21,827 nucleotides of DNA, taken from positions 1 to 21,827 of IMG/VR virus record IMGVR_UViG_3300042563_000571. One strand, written 5' to 3'. Source of the DNA: a virus. This document shows positions 2,975 through 21,827 of this stretch, in pieces. The notes under the pieces were generated by a model. It was given only the letters and a program-made list of their open reading frames with translations, was not told the origin of the DNA and made no database searches. How positions within the stretch are numbered: the stretch's first letter is position 1; every line of letters starts with the position of its first letter. The position numbers and the translations under genes were made by a program.

Positions 2975-3328
2975 TTATTTAGTTTGATTATGTTTTATGA
3001 TATTATCAGATTGAGTAATACATTGTAAGTTCTCAATTCGATTATCACCTTTATCTCCATTGATATGGTCTATTACCCATCCTTCAGGTATCATACCTTT
3101 GAATGTAACCCATACTAAACGATGAACTCTTAAAGAACTTCTTTCAGCTTTTGTTTTGCCCCAATAAATGTTTGCGTATTTATATCCAGTTTTCTTTGTG
3201 GATAATTTAATTTCTCTCAATTGTCCGTTGAGAGTTCCTAATCTTAATGAAGGTTTATTACAAAATACTTTTCCATCAGTATCTACATAATAGTTAGGGT
3301 AACCCTTAATCTCTTCGATTTGTGCCAT
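2975..3328 (-). CDS. NUMOD4 + HNH homing endonuclease
   Basis: A 117-residue protein. Residues 4-24 match NUMOD4 (EIKGYPNYYVDTDGKVFC), a DNA-binding module of phage homing endonucleases. Residues 68-105 match an HNH nuclease: RVHRLVW with His69, then GWVIDHINGDKGDNRIENLQ with Asp87-His88, Asn90, Asn96 and Asn100. It would cut DNA at a recognition site and promote its own spread. It is a complete, compact free-standing gene. Its leader repeats 25 bases found before the upstream 50-aa gene, and it ends one base before the DUF4373 start codon. Confidence 0.85.
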   Translation of the reverse strand: MAQIEEIKGYPNYYVDTDGKVFCNKPSLRLGTLNGQLREIKLSTKKTGYKYANIYWGKTKAERSSLRVHRLVWVTFKGMIPEGWVIDHINGDKGDNRIENLQCITQSDNIIKHNQTK

Positions 3329-4038: not shown

Positions 4039-4207
4039 ACTTTTTCTCTGATAAATAATTTAGTTCTAATTGAATTGAGTTTACATCTTTACTAATTTGT
4101 AGTATCATTTGTCTCAATTCGTTTATTTGTCCTTGTTGTGCTTCAATTTTCAATTCCAAATCATAAAGAGTTGAATTGAACTTTTTACGCTTGAATATAT
4201 TAAACAT
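4022..4207 (-). CDS. small coiled-coil protein, 61 aa
   Basis: I place the start at the ATG at 4205-4207, which overlaps the stop of the upstream gene by one base (TAATG), a coupling junction used repeatedly in this genome. An in-frame ATG at 4231 would lie inside the upstream gene and is less likely. The 61-residue protein has a basic N-terminus (FNIFKRKKF) and then a long heptad-like helix, LYDLELKIEAQQGQINELRQ through LNYLSEK, consistent with a coiled coil. No known function; it may be a small structural or accessory protein of the late block. Confidence 0.6.
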   Translation of the reverse strand: MFNIFKRKKFNSTLYDLELKIEAQQGQINELRQMILQISKDVNSIQLELNYLSEKKYGKSI

Positions 4208-4527
4208 TATTCTTCTTTTATTGGTATACAATTTGGAACAGGTCTTCCATCATCACCATCTTTCATTCCGTATTGTTCGTAACCTTCGGTGCACGGGTCG
4301 TTCTCATCTTTCAAAACAATACCTTTGTATTTATTTTTAATCTGCATTCCTACAATTTTCATATTAACTTTTTCAGCAGTAGTTAAATTTTGATTTGCTT
4401 CTTCATATGTTCTTACACATACTGCTGCCGCTTGCTGTTCGTCATATTCTGCTGGATATAATACAGGTATACATCTACTTACAAAATCATTTTGATTTTC
4501 GTTTTTATTTGGTTTTGGTATTGGCAT
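4207..4527 (-). CDS. phage protein with MPIPKP and PNCIP cysteine motifs, 106 aa
   Basis: A 106-residue protein with two recognisable pieces. Residues 1-42 (MPIPKPNKNENQNDFVSRCI, then QQAAAVCVRTYEE) resemble a short module found in phage head genes, with Cys19 and Cys37. Residues 77-102 (DPCTEGYEQYGMKDGDDGR, then VPNCIP) form a second motif with Cys79 and Cys100. From memory, both modules often occur fused to XkdF-type proteases or other phage head proteins. Here they are combined in a separate small gene, four genes downstream of the protease. Paired cysteines could bind metal or form disulfides, which is inference. Confidence 0.6.
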   Translation of the reverse strand: MPIPKPNKNENQNDFVSRCIPVLYPAEYDEQQAAAVCVRTYEEANQNLTTAEKVNMKIVGMQIKNKYKGIVLKDENDPCTEGYEQYGMKDGDDGRPVPNCIPIKEE

Positions 4528-4531
4528 CTTA

Positions 4532-4882
4532 TTAATTTACGATATATAATGTATTTTCAAATCTAGCTTTTGATACGGTCTGTAAATCCAATGTTCTCCA
4601 TACTTTTCTACCGCTTTCGTTAGTAAGTGTTGTTTGAATATTATACATTCCTTCTCTTGCTTTTGTTTTTGTCATCTCTTCTCCTTGCTCAGTTGTTCCT
4701 ATTGGTCCTGGAACCCACCACATCCAATAGTAATCCGTATTACCTGCCATTGTTTCCCATTGAACTCTAATAGGATTACTTCTACTTGAACTCTCTAACA
4801 AATCCTGAAATTCAGAAAGTGAAATGGTTTTGGTTTTGATACCAAACTTTTCAATGTTTTTATATACGGAATTAGTATTCAT
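4532..4882 (-). CDS. hypothetical protein, 116 aa
   Basis: A 116-residue protein I cannot name. It has an N-terminal helix (SLSEFQDLLESSSRS), a Trp/Tyr-rich middle (DYYWMWWVPGPIG), a central KAREGMYNIQTTL stretch and a strand-rich end WRTLDLQTVSKARFENTLYI. That tail resembles the ending of many small phage proteins of the type (F/W)RT(F/L)(D/N)L...V...Y.V. It lies 1 base after the cysteine-rich gene and 4 bases before the MPIPKP gene, in the late block. No signal peptide or membrane segment. Confidence 0.55.
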   Translation of the reverse strand: MNTNSVYKNIEKFGIKTKTISLSEFQDLLESSSRSNPIRVQWETMAGNTDYYWMWWVPGPIGTTEQGEEMTKTKAREGMYNIQTTLTNESGRKVWRTLDLQTVSKARFENTLYIVN

Positions 4883-4883
4883 A

Positions 4884-5294
4884 TTAATCAGTTATAGGGC
4901 CACCTGTTACCCATGCATCACATGTTCTATTAGCAGCACATTTGAAATCAAATGCTTCACAATATCCTAAATCACCTGCATCAATTGTATCCCATTCATT
5001 TGTATCATTGATACCACTAGCGATACAATCTAATATTGCTTTGGTTTGAACGAAGAAAGAACAATTACCACATAGGGCTTTCTTTGCACTTTCAACATCC
5101 TCACCACCGAACATCTTTGCTTTTGCTATCCAATAATCTTCATTAGGCTCATTCGGATTGAGAGGGCCATAATTCGCCTCGTCAATGCACCTTTGCCTAT
5201 TTTTAAGATTAGTTGGTATATCCTTTGTTGCCGTAGGGCAAGCTGCTAAACGATATTCTTTAAGTTTGTGTAATAATTTTTGATTACCTAACAT
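4884..5294 (-). CDS. cysteine-rich phage protein, possible metal/Fe-S binding, 136 aa
   Basis: A 136-residue protein with eight cysteines (19, 36, 75, 78, 90, 112, 119, 125). The C-terminal domain carries LCGNCSFF, then LDC, then LGYCEAFDFKCAANRTCDAW and ends GGPI. I have the impression that this pattern (CxxC...C...GYC...FKC...RTC..W..GGP) recurs in unrelated phages. Six cysteines within about 50 residues suggest a metal or iron-sulfur site, but this is inferred from spacing only; disulfides are an alternative. It lies one base after the Dps-like gene, so the two are almost certainly co-translated. This makes an iron or redox partnership worth testing. Confidence 0.65.
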   Translation of the reverse strand: MLGNQKLLHKLKEYRLAACPTATKDIPTNLKNRQRCIDEANYGPLNPNEPNEDYWIAKAKMFGGEDVESAKKALCGNCSFFVQTKAILDCIASGINDTNEWDTIDAGDLGYCEAFDFKCAANRTCDAWVTGGPITD

Positions 5295-5295
5295 A

Positions 5296-5664
5296 TTATT
5301 TCTTTAAGGTAAGTAAGTAAATTGTTCTAGCTATTTGTGCTTCAATTTCATCTATTTGATTTTGAAACCAACTATCTGAATATAATGATGTTCTTTCAGT
5401 TTTAACATATTGGTATAGGTTTTGCATATACTTCATTGTATCATCAGTTGATGTCCAATCTACAAAGTCGTGGGCTTCATAACCTTTTGGTCTACCATAT
5501 ATACCTGCTGTGCTTTCAACTAAACCATCTAATAAATCTTGTATCTTATCATAAAAACCATTTAAGGTTTTGTGTTCACTATACACTTCGGTTTGATTGT
5601 GCCAAAATATACTTTGTTGTTTAGCACTATTTAATACCGATAAAAATTCTACGAATGTTGCCAT
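5296..5664 (-). CDS. Dps-like ferritin-fold protein (DUF5856-type)
   Basis: A 122-residue all-helical protein resembling DUF5856 proteins of phages, related to Dps/ferritin. Residues 19-51 read IFWHNQTEVYSEH, KTLNGFYDKI, then LLDGLVE. His31-x14-Asp46-x3-Glu50 reproduces the spacing of His43, Asp58 and Glu62 of the E. coli Dps ferroxidase site, and HKTLNGF aligns with HEMLDGF there. The first Dps histidine would correspond to His22, though the gap to His31 is three residues shorter. It could oxidise and store iron or bind DNA. Dps proteins are normally about 160-170 residues, so this is a short version. It lies two bases after the protease gene and one before the cysteine-rich gene. A packaged or infection-time role is inference. 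Confidence 0.65.
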   Translation of the reverse strand: MATFVEFLSVLNSAKQQSIFWHNQTEVYSEHKTLNGFYDKIQDLLDGLVESTAGIYGRPKGYEAHDFVDWTSTDDTMKYMQNLYQYVKTERTSLYSDSWFQNQIDEIEAQIARTIYLLTLKK

Positions 5665-5666
5665 AA

Positions 5667-6761
5667 TTAATCTTTTGTTCCTATCAATGCAGGATGTATA
5701 TAATTCTTTTTCTTTTTGCCAGGTCCTTCACCAGGATAAGATGACGCGACTGATGGTTGTCCCTCTGCTTCAATCAATCCTAATTCTCTCAATTTATTTC
5801 TACTCCATGCTAATCCTGCTTTTCCACCCCATGCGTTATACATAAGAAACCCGCAGCCATCGCCGAATGATTTAGATGTTTCCAAATCACCTTCATGTCT
5901 ACTTAAAAAGCTATACATTCTACGAATTGTATCAATTGAGATTGCCTCACCTTTTGCCAATTGGTTGCTTCTCATTTTCCCGACGGGAGTTCCACAACTA
6001 CCCCATCCGTTTTTATTTGCATACTCTAATGCTCTTTTTGCATTATTCTTTACACCATCTGGATAATCAGAATAACTTTCCATCTCAATTCTTTGACCTT
6101 TACCATACCTCTTATCTTTCTTAATAAGAGCTTTAAGGTGTGATAACAATACATCTGCTTCCGTTTCACTTAACTCCGTAATTTGCTTATCTAAAATCGT
6201 TTCCAGAGGTATTTCTATCTTTGATGCTTTAAGTAATTCATGTGTGAATAAACCTTCTAGTGAAATTCCTTTTACCTTTCCCGTTTTTACAAAGTTATCC
6301 CATATATTTTGGTTATCAACTTTGAATACACCGAACCATGTTCCAACCTTTACAGGTAAACCATATGCTCTTGCTTTATCGAATTGAACACTATCAGCTA
6401 CCCAACTCTCAACTAATGAAATATCACTTACTGAATTGGCATGTTCCAATGTAATGTTGTTAGCGTTATTATCTTTGATATACTTTTGTGCAATCTTCTT
6501 TACCATTTCAGGTGAGAACTGAACATAGTAAGGAGTTCCATCTTCTTTTAATCTTAATATCTTCAAATTCGGGATTAGAATTGGGCCAACTATTAAATGT
6601 TTGTCCTCATCAACTGATGCGAATTTAATCTCTACCTTACCATCTTTGCTTAACCAAACAAAATCTTGCATGATGGCCGGCTCGGATACGAGTGATAGAG
6701 CAAATGTGCCATCCTCTTCATCCTTTAAGATTAGTTCGTATGTTTCATAATTTTGTTCCAT
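5667..6761 (-). CDS. XkdF-type prohead (capsid maturation) protease with C-terminal accessory domain
   Basis: A 364-residue protein. The N-terminal two-thirds fit the XkdF/peptidase S78-like prohead proteases: VSEPAI near 25-30, an AspPro-less EHAN motif with His107 (LEHAN), and KGISLEG with Ser167, the likely catalytic His and Ser. Such enzymes cut the scaffold and capsid N-termini during head maturation. Residues about 228-330 form a second domain (SDYPDGVKNNAKRALEYAN, then GKMRSNQLAKGE, IRRMYSFLSRHE, WGGKAGLAWSRNKL) that is commonly attached to such phage proteases. The C-terminus is a basic tail. It is unusual that the gene lies after the tape measure gene rather than next to portal and capsid. 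Confidence 0.8.
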   Translation of the reverse strand: MEQNYETYELILKDEEDGTFALSLVSEPAIMQDFVWLSKDGKVEIKFASVDEDKHLIVGPILIPNLKILRLKEDGTPYYVQFSPEMVKKIAQKYIKDNNANNITLEHANSVSDISLVESWVADSVQFDKARAYGLPVKVGTWFGVFKVDNQNIWDNFVKTGKVKGISLEGLFTHELLKASKIEIPLETILDKQITELSETEADVLLSHLKALIKKDKRYGKGQRIEMESYSDYPDGVKNNAKRALEYANKNGWGSCGTPVGKMRSNQLAKGEAISIDTIRRMYSFLSRHEGDLETSKSFGDGCGFLMYNAWGGKAGLAWSRNKLRELGLIEAEGQPSVASSYPGEGPGKKKKNYIHPALIGTKD

Positions 6762-6792: not shown

Positions 6793-8832
6793 TTATCCTC
6801 CACTAAAAGTTGCTGCTCTATTTGTTCTCCTATCCAATGCCTGTTGGCTAGAAATTTCAGTTGATACAACATATGCTTGAATTGGTTTTTTAGTTGTTTG
6901 TGATAGAGTTTGTGCAATTTGTGATGTAGGATTTGCACCTGCTCCTGTATTAATTTGTGGTGTTGCAGTAGCCGTTGGTGCACCTCCATATACTGGTGGT
7001 GGTGCCTGTGCTGCTGCCGGTGAACCTCCACCACCTTGCACACCTGCTGAACCTGCTGCTTGATTTATTTGTGAAATTGATTTAGCTGCTGCTGCGACTG
7101 TTGATGCAATACTTAATCCCGCCGATATAGTATTAATCGTAACCCAAGGTTGTCCAAAACCTAATGGATTTGCTGCTAATGCTTTTGCATTTGCTAAACC
7201 TGTGTTTGCAATAATTTGTCCGATTGCTGCTGCCTGTGATATAACGATACCTGCAATTGCTAGAGTTTTATTCTTTCCTGCTAATTGAGTTAATGTGTTA
7301 CCGAATTGTGCAAACAAATCTAAATACGCCATATTGATTGCGTGTTTAGCTTCCATTGCTGCTTTTTCAGTTGCAACCTCTTTATTAGTTACATTCATTC
7401 TAGCATCTGCATATTTCTTTCTGATTTCAGTTCTTTGAAATTCAGTAAGTTCAGTATTTTCTAATTCCTTAGCTTCTTGTTCAGCAAGTAATGCTTTCAT
7501 TGTAGCTAATCTCTCTAAATCTTGTTTGAAATCTCCTTCTACTAATTGGTTTTGTCTATCTAACTCCTCAATCTTACCTTGCAATTCTAATAAAGCAATA
7601 CCTCTCTGTTCCTCTAATCCTTTCTTTCTTTGTTCTTTTTTATAGTTTTCAAAATCTAATTCAGCTTGAGCTAATTCTTTTGCATCAGCTGCAAACTTAA
7701 CTCTTAAATCATAAAGTTGTTGTTGGTATGCACCTTCTTCCATACCTTGTGCCTTCTTTATATCCAATGCGTTTTTTTCTGCATCAAAGATATCCTTATT
7801 TGCTTTGGCTGTTAACTCTTTTTGCTTATCCTTAAATCCTGATAATTGAGTTGTATAATCACTATCTAATTTTATTAATTCAGCTTGAATACCTTTATAC
7901 TCAACACTATCTTTTTTATATAATGCTTGCTTATCCTGTAAATCTTTTAATCTTTGATTGTAAGATTTTTCAGCAAATGCTTTTTCAATATCCAACTTTT
8001 GTTGTTCAGTTGTAGCAAGTGCTAGAGTTTCAGCTTTCATTTTCTCTAAACGAGCTTCATCAATCTTATCCTCAGCTTCCATTCTCTTCAACTTCTCTTG
8101 CAAAGCTTTATCACTATCATCCTTTTGTTCTTTGAGATTGGCTTTTTGAGTTTTAGTCATTTTAGCTGCACCCTTATCAAATCTTTCAGTTGCTGCTTCG
8201 TAGTTATCACTAAATGATGTTACTGATGATTTAGCATCTTCCCATGCTCCTGCAAAATCTCCTTTGAATAATTTTACAACTGCCGAACCTAACTTACCTA
8301 ATGATTGGAATACTGCCGTTACTGCCGAATAAACTACTTTGAATGCTTTTGTTACATACGGCATTACCTGTATTGCTAATTCAACAAATCCATCAATCAA
8401 AGGTTGTATTGCTTCTAATATACCTCCGAATATTTGTTCCATTGCAATCAACAAAGGTTCTAGCTTTTTCATCGAACCTTCGGTTTGAGTAAATGCTGCA
8501 ACTAATCCACCAACCAAAGATACTATTAAACCAATACCTGTTGCTTTAAGTGCTGCTCCCCAACTCTTTGTTGCTAATTCAACTTTCTTTAATCCTTGAA
8601 ATAATTGACCTACGGGACCAGGTGCAGCTTCTAATGCTCCTGCAAAATCATCTGCTCCTAATTTAGCACCTGCAATTGCATCCTCCATATCTCTAATTTC
8701 AGAAGATAATCTTTTGAAATCAGCAGAACCTGCAGCTGCACTTTTCAATTGCTTCTTTAATTCTTTCAAATTAGCAATTGAAGCATCTAAATTGGATTGA
8801 ACATCAATCTCTACTTCAACTTTCTTTGCCAT
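6793..8832 (-). CDS. tail tape measure protein
   Basis: A 679-residue protein with the features of a tape measure. It has a helical N-terminus with repeats of small residues and a hydrophobic segment at about 91-113 (KATGIGLIVSLVGGLVAAF). A long charged coiled coil runs from about 215-500, with many K/E/A/Q heptads. A second hydrophobic, Ala/Gly-rich segment lies at about 520-600, and the tail is disordered and Gly/Pro/Ala/Gln-rich. It would set tail length and help DNA passage. At about 0.15 nm per residue the helix would predict a tail near 100 nm, so a siphovirus-type phage. Unlike the usual order, it follows the tail-tip genes and is preceded by no obvious frameshifted chaperone pair. Confidence 0.85.
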   Translation of the reverse strand: MAKKVEVEIDVQSNLDASIANLKELKKQLKSAAAGSADFKRLSSEIRDMEDAIAGAKLGADDFAGALEAAPGPVGQLFQGLKKVELATKSWGAALKATGIGLIVSLVGGLVAAFTQTEGSMKKLEPLLIAMEQIFGGILEAIQPLIDGFVELAIQVMPYVTKAFKVVYSAVTAVFQSLGKLGSAVVKLFKGDFAGAWEDAKSSVTSFSDNYEAATERFDKGAAKMTKTQKANLKEQKDDSDKALQEKLKRMEAEDKIDEARLEKMKAETLALATTEQQKLDIEKAFAEKSYNQRLKDLQDKQALYKKDSVEYKGIQAELIKLDSDYTTQLSGFKDKQKELTAKANKDIFDAEKNALDIKKAQGMEEGAYQQQLYDLRVKFAADAKELAQAELDFENYKKEQRKKGLEEQRGIALLELQGKIEELDRQNQLVEGDFKQDLERLATMKALLAEQEAKELENTELTEFQRTEIRKKYADARMNVTNKEVATEKAAMEAKHAINMAYLDLFAQFGNTLTQLAGKNKTLAIAGIVISQAAAIGQIIANTGLANAKALAANPLGFGQPWVTINTISAGLSIASTVAAAAKSISQINQAAGSAGVQGGGGSPAAAQAPPPVYGGAPTATATPQINTGAGANPTSQIAQTLSQTTKKPIQAYVVSTEISSQQALDRRTNRAATFSGG

Positions 8833-15357: not shown

Positions 15358-16686
15358 TTAATCGTTTTTAATAATTTCGTATTCTCTTTCAAAAAATGCT
15401 GATGAAGCATTTATTATTGTTGTTCCTTCACCAGGACCATTAGGGCCTCTTACACCCTGTGTTGGTCGGTTATCATCTATTGTTGTTTGGTCTGCACTAT
15501 CTTCTTGTGTTGCAGGATTTTCCATTTCCTTATTAGTTTCCTCTGCAACTTCTCCAACTGATTTACCCTGGTCTTCTGCCTGTTGTGAAAGAATTGCCAA
15601 AGGAGTTAATTGGTCAAAGTATAATTCAACATCTTCAAATCCACCATCTGCTAATGCACTATCCAAAGTATTTAAGATAAGGTTTTGGAATGGTGTAATT
15701 GTCATAGTTTGTAAGATACTGAATGCCGTCATCATTTCTTCTGATTGAGAACTAAATCCATTATTTGCTGTGCGAATGCCGAGTAATAGTGGAGATGTAA
15801 TTCTATGTGCCACCAATATTCTATCTTGTGCATAATCCGCAACATACTGAAATTTCTCATGTAAGTTATCAATGTTTATTACATCGATTGTTGGTTTAGT
15901 AGCTACATCATCATTAAATGATAACATAAATCTACCTGCATTTTTAGTGCCTGTAAATTTAGCTTTAATTAAATCTTCAATAGTTTCTCTTTGTTCAGGT
16001 GCAGGTTGTCCGTTATTAAAGTTCAACATTACCATTGGTAAGAAACCATTTTCAATATTATTTAAGTGTAAGTTACTTAACTCTGCTTCTACAAAACTGA
16101 ATTGTAATGAAGAAACCCAATCAGGTAATGAATAATAATATAAATTAGGTGAATAGTTTTTCAAATAAAGCACTTCCATCTTTTCGTTAGATGTGCCGTA
16201 AGCAGGTATCTTTTTCTTATCTCTTATCTTTTTTTGGTCTAACCAATCTGTGCAATAATAATAATTTTCAATACGAGGGTTCTCATATATTTTCTCTGCT
16301 CTTAAATACTGAACAGGTATGTGATACATCTTTTTAATCTTTGTATGTGTATCATCCCAATATACTTGATATGCTGCATTACCATATAATTTCAAATCAA
16401 ATGCTACTCTCTTCGTTTCCTCTTGTGGAATTAATCTTTGTAAAGTTTTATTAAACTCTTCGTTTTTAGAATATAATCCTTTTCCGTATACCAAATCAGC
16501 GATACCCTCAATACATGCAGCAGTTGTTGTTGATGTTGAGTGTGCCAATGATATAGCTAAAAAGAAATCATCATGTCCAAACACCCCAAATGGAACGAAT
16601 GGATAACGAGTTTTAGTATCTTCCTGTATTCTAGGTAAATCGTTTGCTCCGAAGTTTACAATATTAAATTTAGTTTCTTTATTCAT
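15358..16686 (-). CDS. portal protein
   Basis: A 442-residue protein with the organisation of phage portals. It has an N-terminal region with HSTSTTTAACIEGIADLVYG, a clip/wing region with aromatic-rich strands (HIPVQYLRAEKIYENP) and a helical stem. Then come LVAHRITSPLLLGIRTANNG and SEEMMTAFSILQTMTITPFQ, a pattern typical of portals. The disordered, acidic, Gln/Asn/Pro-rich C-terminus fits the portal crown or internal end. It forms the dodecameric DNA gateway. It is preceded by one base from the 137-aa gene. Length is within the usual range. Confidence 0.8.
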   Translation of the reverse strand: MNKETKFNIVNFGANDLPRIQEDTKTRYPFVPFGVFGHDDFFLAISLAHSTSTTTAACIEGIADLVYGKGLYSKNEEFNKTLQRLIPQEETKRVAFDLKLYGNAAYQVYWDDTHTKIKKMYHIPVQYLRAEKIYENPRIENYYYCTDWLDQKKIRDKKKIPAYGTSNEKMEVLYLKNYSPNLYYYSLPDWVSSLQFSFVEAELSNLHLNNIENGFLPMVMLNFNNGQPAPEQRETIEDLIKAKFTGTKNAGRFMLSFNDDVATKPTIDVINIDNLHEKFQYVADYAQDRILVAHRITSPLLLGIRTANNGFSSQSEEMMTAFSILQTMTITPFQNLILNTLDSALADGGFEDVELYFDQLTPLAILSQQAEDQGKSVGEVAEETNKEMENPATQEDSADQTTIDDNRPTQGVRGPNGPGEGTTIINASSAFFEREYEIIKND

Positions 16687-17853: not shown

Positions 17854-18861
17854 TTAGTATGCTCCGTAGTAAACGATATCTTGTCCGATACCGAAAATTA
17901 CTGCTCCTGTGTATCTCATAATGATACGATAGTTTTGTGAACCATCGATGTTCGCCATATCCAATACTCTTACTTCGTTGTAATCTGATAATAAACCAGT
18001 TCCGAAGTGCATATTAGATTTTTGAGCTGCAACGATTTTGCTATCACTCATACCAGGACACAATAAGATTTCAATACCATTGAAGTTGAAAGGCTTATCA
18101 CCCACGTTCATTTGGTTGTTCCAACCATTAGCACCTACTGCACCACCTGCTAAAGCTTGTTGATAAGCTTTACCAACATTTGTTGATACATAGATTACTA
18201 AATCTTCTTTACCATAAACTGCGTTAGGAATAGAATTTACTACACTATCCAATTTAGATAATACATTCGCTGCTGTTACACTTCCAGAAATTGGTTGACC
18301 ACCAATTAAAGAAGAACCGCTGAATGCAGGGATAACACCAGTTGAGACTGTAATGCTACCTGAAACAACAGTCGTATTAGCTGCTACTGATGCTGATAAT
18401 TGAGATTGGAAACCTAGGAATTGACCATTCACATTAGTTCCTTGCCAAATTGCTTGCTCAGTTGCTTGTGCTACGATACCACCTACATAAGAGATTAAGT
18501 AGTCGTTGAAGTTTTTAGGGATAGTATCAAATGCACTATATCCTAATTGTAATGCTTCCCAAGATTGAACGAAGTTTTGCTTACATAATTGTAAGTTAAC
18601 TTGTAATTCTTTTGGAGTTAAAACTGCTTCTGTTAAAGTTACAGAGCCGCTTGTTACGAAATCACATGATGCATCTTGAACGATACCATCTACTGCAATT
18701 CTTTGGATAACCTCTTTGTATTTCACATTCGGGTGAATGGTAACATACTTGTTGTCCAATGTTTTTGCTGATAACAACGCTGCTGCGATGTATTGACCTG
18801 CGAACTCACCTGCGTAGGTAGAGCTAATTGTAGGTTCAGCGAATTTTTGAAGTTTGTTCAT
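17854..18861 (-). CDS. major capsid protein (HK97-fold type)
   Basis: A 335-residue protein. I place the start at the ATG at 18859-18861 (MNKLQKFAEP); a longer reading from 18948 lies inside the scaffold gene. It contains AGEFAGQYIAAALLSAKTLD, a GSVTLTEAVLTPKELQVNLQ stretch like the E-loop/P-domain boundary, then GIVAQATEQAIWQGTN, and DLVIYVSTNVGKAYQQALAG followed by GIEILLCPGMSDSKIVAAQ near the A-domain, ending with a beta strand RYTGAVIFGIGQDIVYYGAY. This is the pattern of HK97-fold capsid proteins of Bacteroidota phages. It lies 31 bases after the scaffold gene and upstream of a hairpin. Confidence 0.8.
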   Translation of the reverse strand: MNKLQKFAEPTISSTYAGEFAGQYIAAALLSAKTLDNKYVTIHPNVKYKEVIQRIAVDGIVQDASCDFVTSGSVTLTEAVLTPKELQVNLQLCKQNFVQSWEALQLGYSAFDTIPKNFNDYLISYVGGIVAQATEQAIWQGTNVNGQFLGFQSQLSASVAANTTVVSGSITVSTGVIPAFSGSSLIGGQPISGSVTAANVLSKLDSVVNSIPNAVYGKEDLVIYVSTNVGKAYQQALAGGAVGANGWNNQMNVGDKPFNFNGIEILLCPGMSDSKIVAAQKSNMHFGTGLLSDYNEVRVLDMANIDGSQNYRIIMRYTGAVIFGIGQDIVYYGAY

Positions 18862-18892
18862 TTTAATTTTGTTAAATGAGTTAATAATATTT

Positions 18893-19621
18893 TTATCTAT
18901 AAAGTTTTGATAAGAAGTCACCTTGTGGGTTACCTGTTTTCTTACCATATGATTTACTAAAATCTTGTGGTTTTAATGACTCGGTTGGAGCTCCGTCTAA
19001 TTTCGGTAACTCTTCATCTTCATCTTCATCTTCATCAACCTTTGCCATTTCCATTGGAGATGGTTGTAAAGAACTAACCTCTTGTCCTTCTTCTGGATAT
19101 GCTGATGCGAATTTCTCTTTCATATCAGTTACCATTTTCTCTAATTCATCAATTCTGTATCCTAAACGAATTAATGGGTCTTTCTCATCATCGGTATCAT
19201 CACCCATTGAGTTTCTGATATCTTCATCAGTTGTGTTTGGTAAAGATTTAGCTTCTTCGGTTGTAGCATCGGCCATTTCAACCTCTTCTGCTGCTTTTTT
19301 GTCAACTACCTCTTCATCCATCTTTTTTTCCAAATCTTCGGCATCTTTTTCTTCAACATTTTCTCTTGAAGTAATCTTACCATCCATAGTTTCAATTCTG
19401 ATAACTACTTTGTTACCTTCACTATCGGTTAATTCGATTTCATGTTCTCCGTCCGGAGCTTTGGTTTTTTCACCATCTGCACCTACAACTTCAACATCTT
19501 CACCCAAATCAAATGTAGGTGATTGTAAAATATTTCCTTGTGCATCTTTTGCATCTGTGAATTTTACTTCTTCGCTAGATAACAAAGAAAGTATTCTATT
19601 CAATACGCTTTTTGAGTTCAT
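18893..19621 (-). CDS. capsid assembly scaffold-like protein
   Basis: A 242-residue, very acidic protein directly upstream of the capsid gene. Residues about 18-85 form a beta domain (SPTFDLGEDVEVVGADGEK, then APDGEHEIELTDSEGN) similar to a domain known to me from Bacteroidota phage head genes. Residues 90-145 are acidic and disordered, 150-172 is a coiled coil (RLGYRIDELEKMVTDMKEKF), and 195-205 is DEDEDEDEE, coded by a TTCATC repeat at about 19012-19036. It ends with a basic GKKTGNPQGDFLSKLYR tail that could bind the capsid protein. It would guide capsid assembly and be removed by the prohead protease. Function is inferred from position and composition. Confidence 0.7.
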   Translation of the reverse strand: MNSKSVLNRILSLLSSEEVKFTDAKDAQGNILQSPTFDLGEDVEVVGADGEKTKAPDGEHEIELTDSEGNKVVIRIETMDGKITSRENVEEKDAEDLEKKMDEEVVDKKAAEEVEMADATTEEAKSLPNTTDEDIRNSMGDDTDDEKDPLIRLGYRIDELEKMVTDMKEKFASAYPEEGQEVSSLQPSPMEMAKVDEDEDEDEELPKLDGAPTESLKPQDFSKSYGKKTGNPQGDFLSKLYR

Positions 19622-19667: not shown

Positions 19668-20891
19668 TCATTTTTTATTAAAAATATATTCATTTGCAGG
19701 ATTTATTTCGGAATTATCCACTAAAAGTTCAATTATTTTCGGATTTACTAACTCTGGATGCACCCACCAATCTTCAAAAGCAGATTTTTTATCAACTGAA
19801 ATATTAGAAACTACTAATTTATATCCCATCATTTCTAAATATTTTCTACTTTTATCCCTATATGTTTTATCATCACTATACCAATCATGCTCATAAGTTA
19901 TTACAGCAAATCTATATTTGTCAAATGGAATAGATAAAAGTGCTTCAAATGTATTCTTTGCCGGCTCACAATCTAATTGCAGATAATCTAAATCAGTTCC
20001 CCAATTTTTATTATCTAATATCTCTAAATAATTTGCTTTGGTTGCATCTCTTTGTATACATTGATTTTTTCTTTTACCATTAAACCATGTAACCATTGTA
20101 GGATTGATTTCTAACGATATACCTTTCCAATTAAACTTATCCTCTAATAAAAAAGTATTGGAATGCTCAAATGGTTGATACGAACCTATCTCTAAATACT
20201 TACCTTCTTTCTTGCCATCCAATGCCATTAAGACAAACATATCTTGAAATGCCTGTGAGTGATTATGTTCTATCATCTCAATACCATTAAACTCATATCG
20301 TATCTTATCACCTTTCTTATAGTATGTAGGTTTTGCCCAATTATCTGTTCCCCAAATAAGTTTAATATTATTTTTAACTGATACTTTGTATTCATCACTT
20401 AATTCATAATTCTCATATAAGTCCAAAAGCAAATCAATACTCTCTTTTGTTCTACCCATCCACCAACTAACTACACTTTTTTCAAACAAAAATCCTATTT
20501 TACCTGGATATTCTACACTCTGCAACTCATCAACATCAAAATTGACCATAAAAAGTCCAATTTCAGCAGTTGAATAACTTTCTTGCCACTCTTTATTCCT
20601 TTCATATAACCTACTTAATAAGAAATATGCTTCTGGTTTCATTGGCAATACTGATATAGCATGTTGATACATACCCTTTGCATAAAATGTTCTATTACCT
20701 TGCTTTTCAAAACACAATCCACACTTTAATAAACTTTCGTAAATCAATAAATCGTTCTTTGATACTTCGGTTAATCTTAAATAAAAAGACATTGCCGCAG
20801 CATATTGTTCGTTATCGTAATACCAATTAGCTAAATGAAATGCTGCTAAGTCGTTGTATGGTGATTGTATAAAACTATTTAATTCCTTCAT
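19668..20891 (-). CDS. TPR + FkbM-type methyltransferase
   Basis: A 407-residue protein; the ATG at 20889-20891 is preferred to a TTG two codons upstream. Residues 1-175 are TPR-like helix pairs (AAFHLANWYYDNEQYAAAMS, EAYFLLSRLYERNKEWQESY). The C-terminal domain fits FkbM methyltransferases: SQAFQDMFVLMALDGKKEGK, SAM motif I YLEIGSYQP (232-240), SLEINP (259-264), DYLQLDCEP (302-310), ITYEHDWY (331-338) and WWVHPE. FkbM enzymes O-methylate sugars or polyketides. With the adjacent glycosidase-like gene it suggests modification of glycans, on the virion or the host. It overlaps the upstream gene by 17 bases. Substrate is unknown. Confidence 0.8.
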   Translation of the reverse strand: MKELNSFIQSPYNDLAAFHLANWYYDNEQYAAAMSFYLRLTEVSKNDLLIYESLLKCGLCFEKQGNRTFYAKGMYQHAISVLPMKPEAYFLLSRLYERNKEWQESYSTAEIGLFMVNFDVDELQSVEYPGKIGFLFEKSVVSWWMGRTKESIDLLLDLYENYELSDEYKVSVKNNIKLIWGTDNWAKPTYYKKGDKIRYEFNGIEMIEHNHSQAFQDMFVLMALDGKKEGKYLEIGSYQPFEHSNTFLLEDKFNWKGISLEINPTMVTWFNGKRKNQCIQRDATKANYLEILDNKNWGTDLDYLQLDCEPAKNTFEALLSIPFDKYRFAVITYEHDWYSDDKTYRDKSRKYLEMMGYKLVVSNISVDKKSAFEDWWVHPELVNPKIIELLVDNSEINPANEYIFNKK

Positions 20892-21827
20892 AAACAAATT
20901 TTAAGAAATAATCTTTTGGGATTTCTAATAAGAATGCTGCATTATCTTCATAACCAAATGTGATTAGGATTTTATCTTTGTATTCTGCTATTCCACAACA
21001 AAACTCAATCATACCTGTCATAAAATCAAACGATGGTGTTCTATGTATTATATTCCAATTTTTATCAAACACAATTACTCTGTGTCGATATGTAGCATCT
21101 TTATTGTTTTGCGTATTCCTCCAATAATCAGTTTCATGCACAATACACATCCTATGGTTGCCAATAGTTATTACCTGACTACCACCACGCATATCTTTTT
21201 CAATTGGTATAGTTGTATCAGCCAGAAATACTTGCTCCGTATCTCCGTTTATATTTGCTTTAACAATCTCTACCGGATTACACCATTTTAAGTAATGGAA
21301 TGGCATATCTAAAATAGGCATCCAATTCTTTTCACAATAACTTTCTTTATTATTTGGAGTTGGTATTCTAAACCTACTCATCTCGGTATTATCTTTTATT
21401 TTAGATAATTCCATTCTACCTATGCCAGTTGTTTCAGTATCTCTACGAACACCTGTAAGATAAACATCATCCCACTTTACTAATCTAGCATCTTCTAATC
21501 CAATAAATTCCCACCAGGGTTTAGTATCGAAATTAGATGTGTCAACTTTTGTAGGATTATGTAAAGCATTATCTTTCCATTCACCTAAATAGTTTGTCGT
21601 TGTTAGTGTAATATCGTTATCAGGATTTAGATAACATAAAGGGCCCCATCTACTTTCAAATTTGCCAGAAGTATGATATAGGGTATATTGACAGTGTCTA
21701 ACATTGATTAGAACTCTATCATCATCAACTAAAATAGAAGGATTGAGTAAACCCGTCTTATTATCAGTTGGAAATGCTAATGGATATAAATTACCACCAT
21801 TAGCTAAAATGTGTTTTGCTAGATTTT
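20875..21827 (-). CDS. five-bladed beta-propeller glycosidase-like protein (partial, 5' end outside window)
   Basis: The frame is open from the right edge to the stop at 20875-20877, giving 316 visible residues. Visible markers of the five-bladed propeller superfamily (GH43/GH32/GH130-like): LLNPSILVDDDRVLINVRHC at about 26-45, LTTTNYLGEW, then FIGLEDARLVKWDD at about 107-120, VYLTGVRRDTETTGIGRMEL, CEKNW (164-168) and CIVHETDYWRN. The GLEDAR region corresponds to the conserved EDPR-type motif of these propellers. It probably binds or cleaves a glycan or phosphorylates its linkage; the true substrate is not deducible. It is followed by the FkbM gene with a 17-base overlap. The short piece starting at 21414 is not a separate gene. 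Confidence 0.7.
   Translation of the reverse strand, partial: NLAKHILANGGNLYPLAFPTDNKTGLLNPSILVDDDRVLINVRHCQYTLYHTSGKFESRWGPLCYLNPDNDITLTTTNYLGEWKDNALHNPTKVDTSNFDTKPWWEFIGLEDARLVKWDDVYLTGVRRDTETTGIGRMELSKIKDNTEMSRFRIPTPNNKESYCEKNWMPILDMPFHYLKWCNPVEIVKANINGDTEQVFLADTTIPIEKDMRGGSQVITIGNHRMCIVHETDYWRNTQNNKDATYRHRVIVFDKNWNIIHRTPSFDFMTGMIEFCCGIAEYKDKILITFGYEDNAAFLLEIPKDYFLKFVYEGIK

Follow-up and report, generated by a model that had tools for sequence, protein, structure and literature searches.

A Dps-like mini-ferritin and a HiPIP-like cysteine protein as neighbours in a phage head gene block: a candidate iron/redox unit

Two small genes follow one another among the virion genes of an IMG/VR virus record, and they raise the question of why a ferritin-like protein should be encoded beside a cysteine-rich one in such a place. 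The window, that is the whole stretch of DNA analysed, is 21,827 bases long. A first-pass annotation had proposed that the two proteins, one a Dps-like ferroxidase and the other possibly metal-binding, could form an iron or redox unit delivered or used during late infection. Both open reading frames are confirmed from the sequence on the minus strand, at 5664..5296 (122 aa) and 5294..4884 (136 aa), together with the single base that was said to separate the stop codon of the first from the ATG of the second (TAA-T-ATG).

The surroundings agree with the earlier description of a virion gene block. The adjoining upstream gene (5667..6761, minus strand) encodes an XkdF-type prohead protease (Peptidase_S78_2, PF14550, E 2e-12) which also matches head maturation protease PHROGs and has a phrog_2859-like domain, called SDYP here, at its C-terminus. 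Further upstream on the same strand are genes for a tail tape-measure protein (6793..8832; weak PHROG tape-measure matches, E 1.8e-4), a portal protein (15358..16686; phrog_33693, E 1.5e-55) and a probable major capsid protein (17854..18948), which matches a family without a named function (phrog_11320, E 1.3e-32) and is assigned as capsid by gene order. Downstream of the pair, also on the minus strand, lie a 116-aa protein with no assigned function (4532..4882) and a 106-aa protein, MPIP (4207..4527). According to the gene-order table the former is the usual next gene after the cysteine-rich domain of the 136-aa protein, hereafter HIP, or after a protease-HIP fusion. The MPIP protein is small, has four cysteines and belongs to no Pfam family; its domain is found fused N-terminal to HIP in relatives, and is repeatedly joined there to HIP and to the protease.

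Elsewhere in the window a GIY-YIG endonuclease (1847-2296, with a weak NUMOD1 match) and an HNH_3 endonuclease (2975-3328) bracket a Lin1244-like gene; both are probable free-standing homing endonucleases. The gene at 19668-20897, which adjoins the capsid genes, has a TPR-like N-terminus, the only part with profile matches, and behind it a region that by eye resembles an FkbM-type methyltransferase.

The 122-aa protein is a member of PF19174 (DUF5856; E 1.4e-17, 64.9 bits against a gathering score of 34.6) and matches phrog_858 (E 1.9e-18), a family named 'starvation-inducible transcriptional regulator'. The AlphaFold check for a ferritin helix bundle, suggested in the first-pass annotation, was run; the AF2 model is a four-helix bundle (pLDDT 96.1) with helices at residues 4-24, 28-56, 73-93 and 98-119, and its best PDB matches by Foldseek are Dps proteins (prob 1.00, TMq 0.66-0.76). 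Single-sequence searches of the PDB with the 122-aa and 136-aa proteins gave chance matches only. The DUF5856 family profile finds HP-NAP and Dps as its best PDB matches (E 0.002), aligned through all four ligand positions. The Pfam scan of the protein itself gives PF19174 only, with no match to the Dps family PF00210; PF00210 touches one of 41 DUF5856 relatives (E 0.0028), and PF19174 touches one canonical phage Dps at 0.002.

The predicted ferroxidase ligands H22, H31, D46 and E50 (codons within 5515..5601, minus strand) are assigned from the alignment, the motif and the match to HP-NAP/Dps. Only six columns are invariant in the 41-row DUF5856 alignment, namely these four with G54 and D105, and the H-H-D-E pattern is kept in all 89 distinct relatives. 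The two histidines are spaced x8 in 84 of these and x11 in the other five, which through a three-residue longer loop have the exact Dps spacing, H-x11-H-x14-D-x3-E. The first-pass annotation had noticed H31-x14-D46-x3-E50, which is present, and had overlooked the fourth ligand, H22. The shorter motif, weak evidence by itself, arises in 1.3% of same-composition shuffles and the full H-x8-H-x14-D-x3-E in 0.005%. The equivalent residues had been given as His43, Asp58 and Glu62 of E. coli Dps; this numbering is wrong, as the hmmsearch offset gives H63, D78 and E82, and 43/58/62 is what we take to be Listeria Dps numbering.

Three features of Dps are missing from the 122-aa protein. Residues 57-72 form no helix in the AF2 model, where Dps has the short helix of the BC loop; there is no basic N-terminal DNA-binding tail (pI 4.9, K+R 11 against D+E 17), so DNA binding through a tail of the Dps type is not supported; and the additional Dps aspartate, four residues after the second histidine, is Asn35, at a position that varies across the family. 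For these reasons the protein is best called a Dps-like mini-ferritin rather than a textbook Dps, an assignment for which fold, ligands and profile matches to HP-NAP/Dps all argue. The models are of monomers, and ligand sites shared across subunits are predicted from the likeness to Dps.

Of the eight cysteines in the 136-aa protein, six (C75, C78, C90, C112, C119 and C125) span 51 residues, which agrees with the six in about 50 residues counted earlier; the others are C19 and C36. The core, C75-x2-C78-x11-C90-x21-C112-x6-C119-x5-C125-x2-W128 (4920..5072, minus strand), is conserved: C75, C78, C112, C119 and C125 occur in 47 of 47 non-redundant relatives, C90 in 42 and C19 in 43, and 46 of the 47 keep the full cysteine motif. 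The same five cysteines are invariant even among distant relatives, and at least 598 IMG/VR stretches encode a relative.

Family scans place the protein in no Pfam, PHROG or NCBIfam family, and the HIP family profile gave only chance matches in the PDB. The four-cysteine layout of the high potential iron-sulphur proteins (HiPIPs) with its aromatic residue is present (C75, C78, C112, C125-x2-W128). When the AF2 model (pLDDT 89.6) was compared with 350,542 PDB chains by Foldseek, ranks 1-16 were all HiPIP, with weak scores (E 0.09-1.4, TMt 0.35-0.56), and nothing sensible ranked below them. Among Pfam families, HIP members touch the HiPIP family PF01355 most frequently (11 of 59), with a best E of 0.12 that lies below the cut-off. 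When HIP was compared by HHalign with a HiPIP alignment assembled from genome hits, the CxxC stretch alone was aligned, with a probability of 10%, and resemblance instead of membership is therefore claimed; strict membership of the HiPIP family is supported neither by this nor by the sub-cut-off PF01355 matches. Seven GenBank phage records name HIP relatives 'high potential iron-sulfur protein', names that look automatic and are no evidence by themselves. The description 'HiPIP-like' stands on the model, the Foldseek ranks, the invariant cysteines and the PF01355 touches, and in that sense the metal-binding cysteine protein of the earlier annotation is supported, its bound metal being a prediction.

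The neighbourhood of the two genes was compared across 65 DUF5856 clusters and 144 HIP clusters, formed at 95% identity. The loci (L numbers below), with flanks of 4-6 kb, had been fetched through one or other protein, so the frequencies describe this collection and are not population estimates. The HIP gene lies 2-7 bp 3' of DUF5856 in 16 of the 65 DUF5856 clusters. In three further clusters the gene that begins 5-7 bp after DUF5856 has HIP as its C-terminus, and there the two follow the portal gene, not the protease. No HIP is found within the flanks of 44 DUF5856 clusters, and most HIP clusters have no detected Dps partner, so that general adjacency of the pair is ruled out. The HIP domain was found in only two MAG contigs, from Chitinophagaceae and Betaproteobacteria MAGs, and DUF5856 is absent from both genomes. 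The pairing is real, and not obligate: of the conserved adjacency put forward in the first-pass annotation, the recurrence at 2-7 bp in two contexts holds, and many phages have one gene alone. Against a joint function, the many HIP domains that lack a Dps partner indicate by their distribution that the cysteine domain must also be useful by itself.

In 39 of the 144 HIP clusters the XkdF protease and HIP form one protein, with HIP either at the C-terminus or inserted after the N-terminal strand. Some relatives (e.g. L036, L015) carry HIP and SDYP modules between the SLVxxPAI strand of XkdF and the protease core. These fusions bear on a serious, if rather unlikely, alternative, in which two independent accessories occupy one slot of the head module and their adjacency reflects a recombination hot spot. 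The mini-Dps would then be a cytosolic scavenger of iron and ROS in late infection, and the cysteine domain a zinc- or disulfide-stabilised structural knob on the protease. This would fit the observation that a protease-fused HIP is never seen beside DUF5856 among the loci examined, and also the fluid gene order, with about 14 changes of state in protease fusion and about 8 in DUF5856 adjacency on a HIP tree built from few columns, most forks of which are unresolved. The discussion of phage Dps in Benler 2021 (PMC8008677), which proposes a role in cytosolic oxidative-stress tolerance, is also in its favour.

Fusion of HIP to the portal occurs in three clusters (L276:3525-5363, L272:3513-5531 and L414:2534-4399), at the C-terminus in L276 and L272, whose portals are of the phrog_145 type. 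HIP domains are also found in two giant ORFs, L273:4389-8420 (1344 aa) and L274:4476-8807 (1444 aa); the former also bears a Zeta-toxin/kinase domain at its C-terminus, together with an RNA 2'-phosphotransferase-like segment, which is reminiscent of polyvalent head-ejected proteins.

DUF5856 has head connections of its own. In 22 further DUF5856 clusters a portal of another family is followed by DUF5856 and then either by a MuF-like gene for head morphogenesis or by some other small gene. The genes of L106 run terminase, portal, DUF5856, MuF, protease, capsid, with L200 concordant where examined; DUF5856 therefore occurs in head operons whose other head proteins are unrelated. Together with the fusions of HIP to protease and portal, the position in head operons supports the late or virion use first proposed, with localisation to the head as the prediction that follows. 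Since both domains sit among, and fuse to, capsid-assembly genes, they might be scaffold-like modules of head assembly, ancient folds with a structural role and without metal chemistry. We consider this improbable, because the catalytic ligands H22, H31, D46 and E50 are the most conserved positions of DUF5856 and five cysteines of HIP are invariant, and these are not the residues that a bundle with a structural role alone would conserve most strictly.

Single chains that hold both domains show the two joined more closely than as neighbours. Foldseek against viral models found the HIP fold (E 1e-16) in a 290-aa protein named 'DNA-binding protein Dps', and distant HIP queries of IMG/VR gave 13 ORFs, from several metagenomes, each a single chain that joins an N-terminal Dps domain to a HIP domain. 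PF00210 matches the six fusion ORFs scanned at E 1e-14 to 2.5e-20, and the fusions form at least four clusters (HIP domain, 95% identity). The minimal form, in L393 (3494-4369), is Dps and HIP in 292 aa; its gene comes after those for terminase and portal and before those for scaffold and capsid. Longer forms of 674-803 aa adjoin a different portal family. These multi-domain Dps proteins (L330:2825-5002, L338:634-2655, L324:2675-5083) combine Dps with HIP, with DUF5824 and, between the Dps and HIP domains, with an extra CxxC...C...C segment that again resembles HiPIP and touches PF01355 at 0.099 in L338. The L330 protein has a Cys-rich stretch, and the L330 and L324 genes lie directly 3' of a phrog_776-type portal gene.

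The Dps of these fusions is of the canonical lineage, whereas that of the 122-aa gene is of the DUF5856 lineage, and the Dps-HIP pairing therefore appears to have more than one origin. This repeated origin is why we favour a unit over mere neighbourhood, which had been the favoured account until the Dps-named viral protein with a HIP fold and the IMG/VR fusions were found. Fusions with another Dps lineage and adjacency at 2-7 bp also exceed what a slot shared by two independent accessories would easily explain. The iron or redox unit proposed in the first-pass annotation is thus well supported by the single-chain fusions and by close adjacency in two contexts.

We therefore regard it as moderately probable that the pair is a head-associated iron/redox unit composed of a mini-Dps ferroxidase and a metal-cysteine domain. 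The 122-aa protein would be a minimal Dps-like ferroxidase oligomer with di-iron sites at its subunit interfaces, H22 and H31 coming from one subunit and D46 and E50 from its neighbour. With O2 or peroxide as the oxidant of Fe(II), it would remove Fenton-active iron. In the HIP domain C75, C78, C112 and C125 would be the ligands of a metal centre, most likely an Fe-S cluster of the cubane type, C119 being a further invariant cysteine beside these four putative ligands. The domain may act as an electron relay for the ferroxidase, or as its redox switch or sensor, and/or as a module that ties the unit to the portal or prohead protease during head assembly. The presumed benefit is protection of DNA being packaged. 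All of the following are predictions of this scheme: that metal is bound, that the mini-Dps has ferroxidase activity, that electrons pass between the two proteins, that they are present in procapsid or virion, and that DNA is protected while it is packaged.

Fe-S clusters in virions have a precedent at the lambda-type tail tip. The pairing of a ferritin with an Fe-S partner likewise has one in bacterioferritin and Bfd, and the junction here of a ferritin-family protein with an Fe-S-like domain could be read in the same way, the mini-Dps storing iron and the Fe-S domain reducing and mobilising it for host or phage Fe-S proteins. This we think very unlikely, as the high potential of a HiPIP-type cluster would make it a better acceptor of electrons from Fe(II) than a reductant of ferric mineral. 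The widest form of the head-associated iron/redox unit is itself rather doubtful: that many freshwater phages carry in the head, attached to portal and prohead protease, an iron-redox device of mini-Dps and HiPIP-type Fe-S protein, which is packaged with or around the genome and controls iron oxidation during assembly or is delivered with the DNA.

The usual explanation of phage Dps-like proteins is that they help the host under stress, and HiPIP names in phages look like stray automatic annotation. Here both domains belong with capsid assembly: DUF5856 is kept inside head operons whose portals are of unrelated types, and HIP has been joined to protease, portal and Dps proteins. Should these proteins hold metal, a large number of environmental virions would be carriers of iron and redox chemistry, with consequences for viral iron cycling, for how DNA is protected inside the particle and for the maturation of these heads. 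Full-text searches, which covered open-licence literature, found no paper on DUF5856 or on the DUF5856-HIP pair.

Among known systems, 'Gratiaviridae' gut phages encode a Dps and an Mn-catalase (PMC8008677) and L. plantarum phages a ferritin-like protein (PMC6669764). These are similar in being phage-borne, iron-sequestering, ferritin-like enzymes, and both papers discuss them as oxidative-stress helpers. The passages of the two papers that concern these proteins describe no HiPIP-like partner, head-operon linkage or fusions. DUF5856/phrog_858 includes rI.-1 of Pseudotevenvirus phages, and the 122-aa protein is a full member. In T4-like phages the DUF5856 gene is a neighbour of rI and carries a regulator annotation, whereas here it lies in a head operon by the protease and HIP. 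The name of RB16 rI.-1 (L132:2902-3285), 'starvation-inducible transcriptional regulator', hides a Dps-like fold; its gene adjoins the lysis-inhibition gene rI.

Dps and HP-NAP (PF00210) share with the 122-aa protein the four-helix bundle and the H-H-D-E ligands, and are its best fold and profile matches in the PDB. DUF5856 differs from them in a His-His loop that is usually three residues shorter and in the unconserved aspartate at His+4, and the present protein also in its length of only 122 aa, in a model with no BC-loop helix and in having no basic N-terminal tail. HiPIP (PF01355) has the CxxC...C...C-x2-W layout of HIP and fills PDB Foldseek ranks 1-16, with weak scores, but the gap between the second and third cysteines is 33 residues in HIP and 16 in A. 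vinosum HiPIP, and HIP, which stays below the Pfam cut-off, has the extra invariant Cys119 and a helical N-terminal part. The neighbouring protease is a member of the XkdF (PBSX) prohead protease family (PF14550), to which its relatives add HIP and SDYP domains, either C-terminally or between the N-terminal strand and the core.
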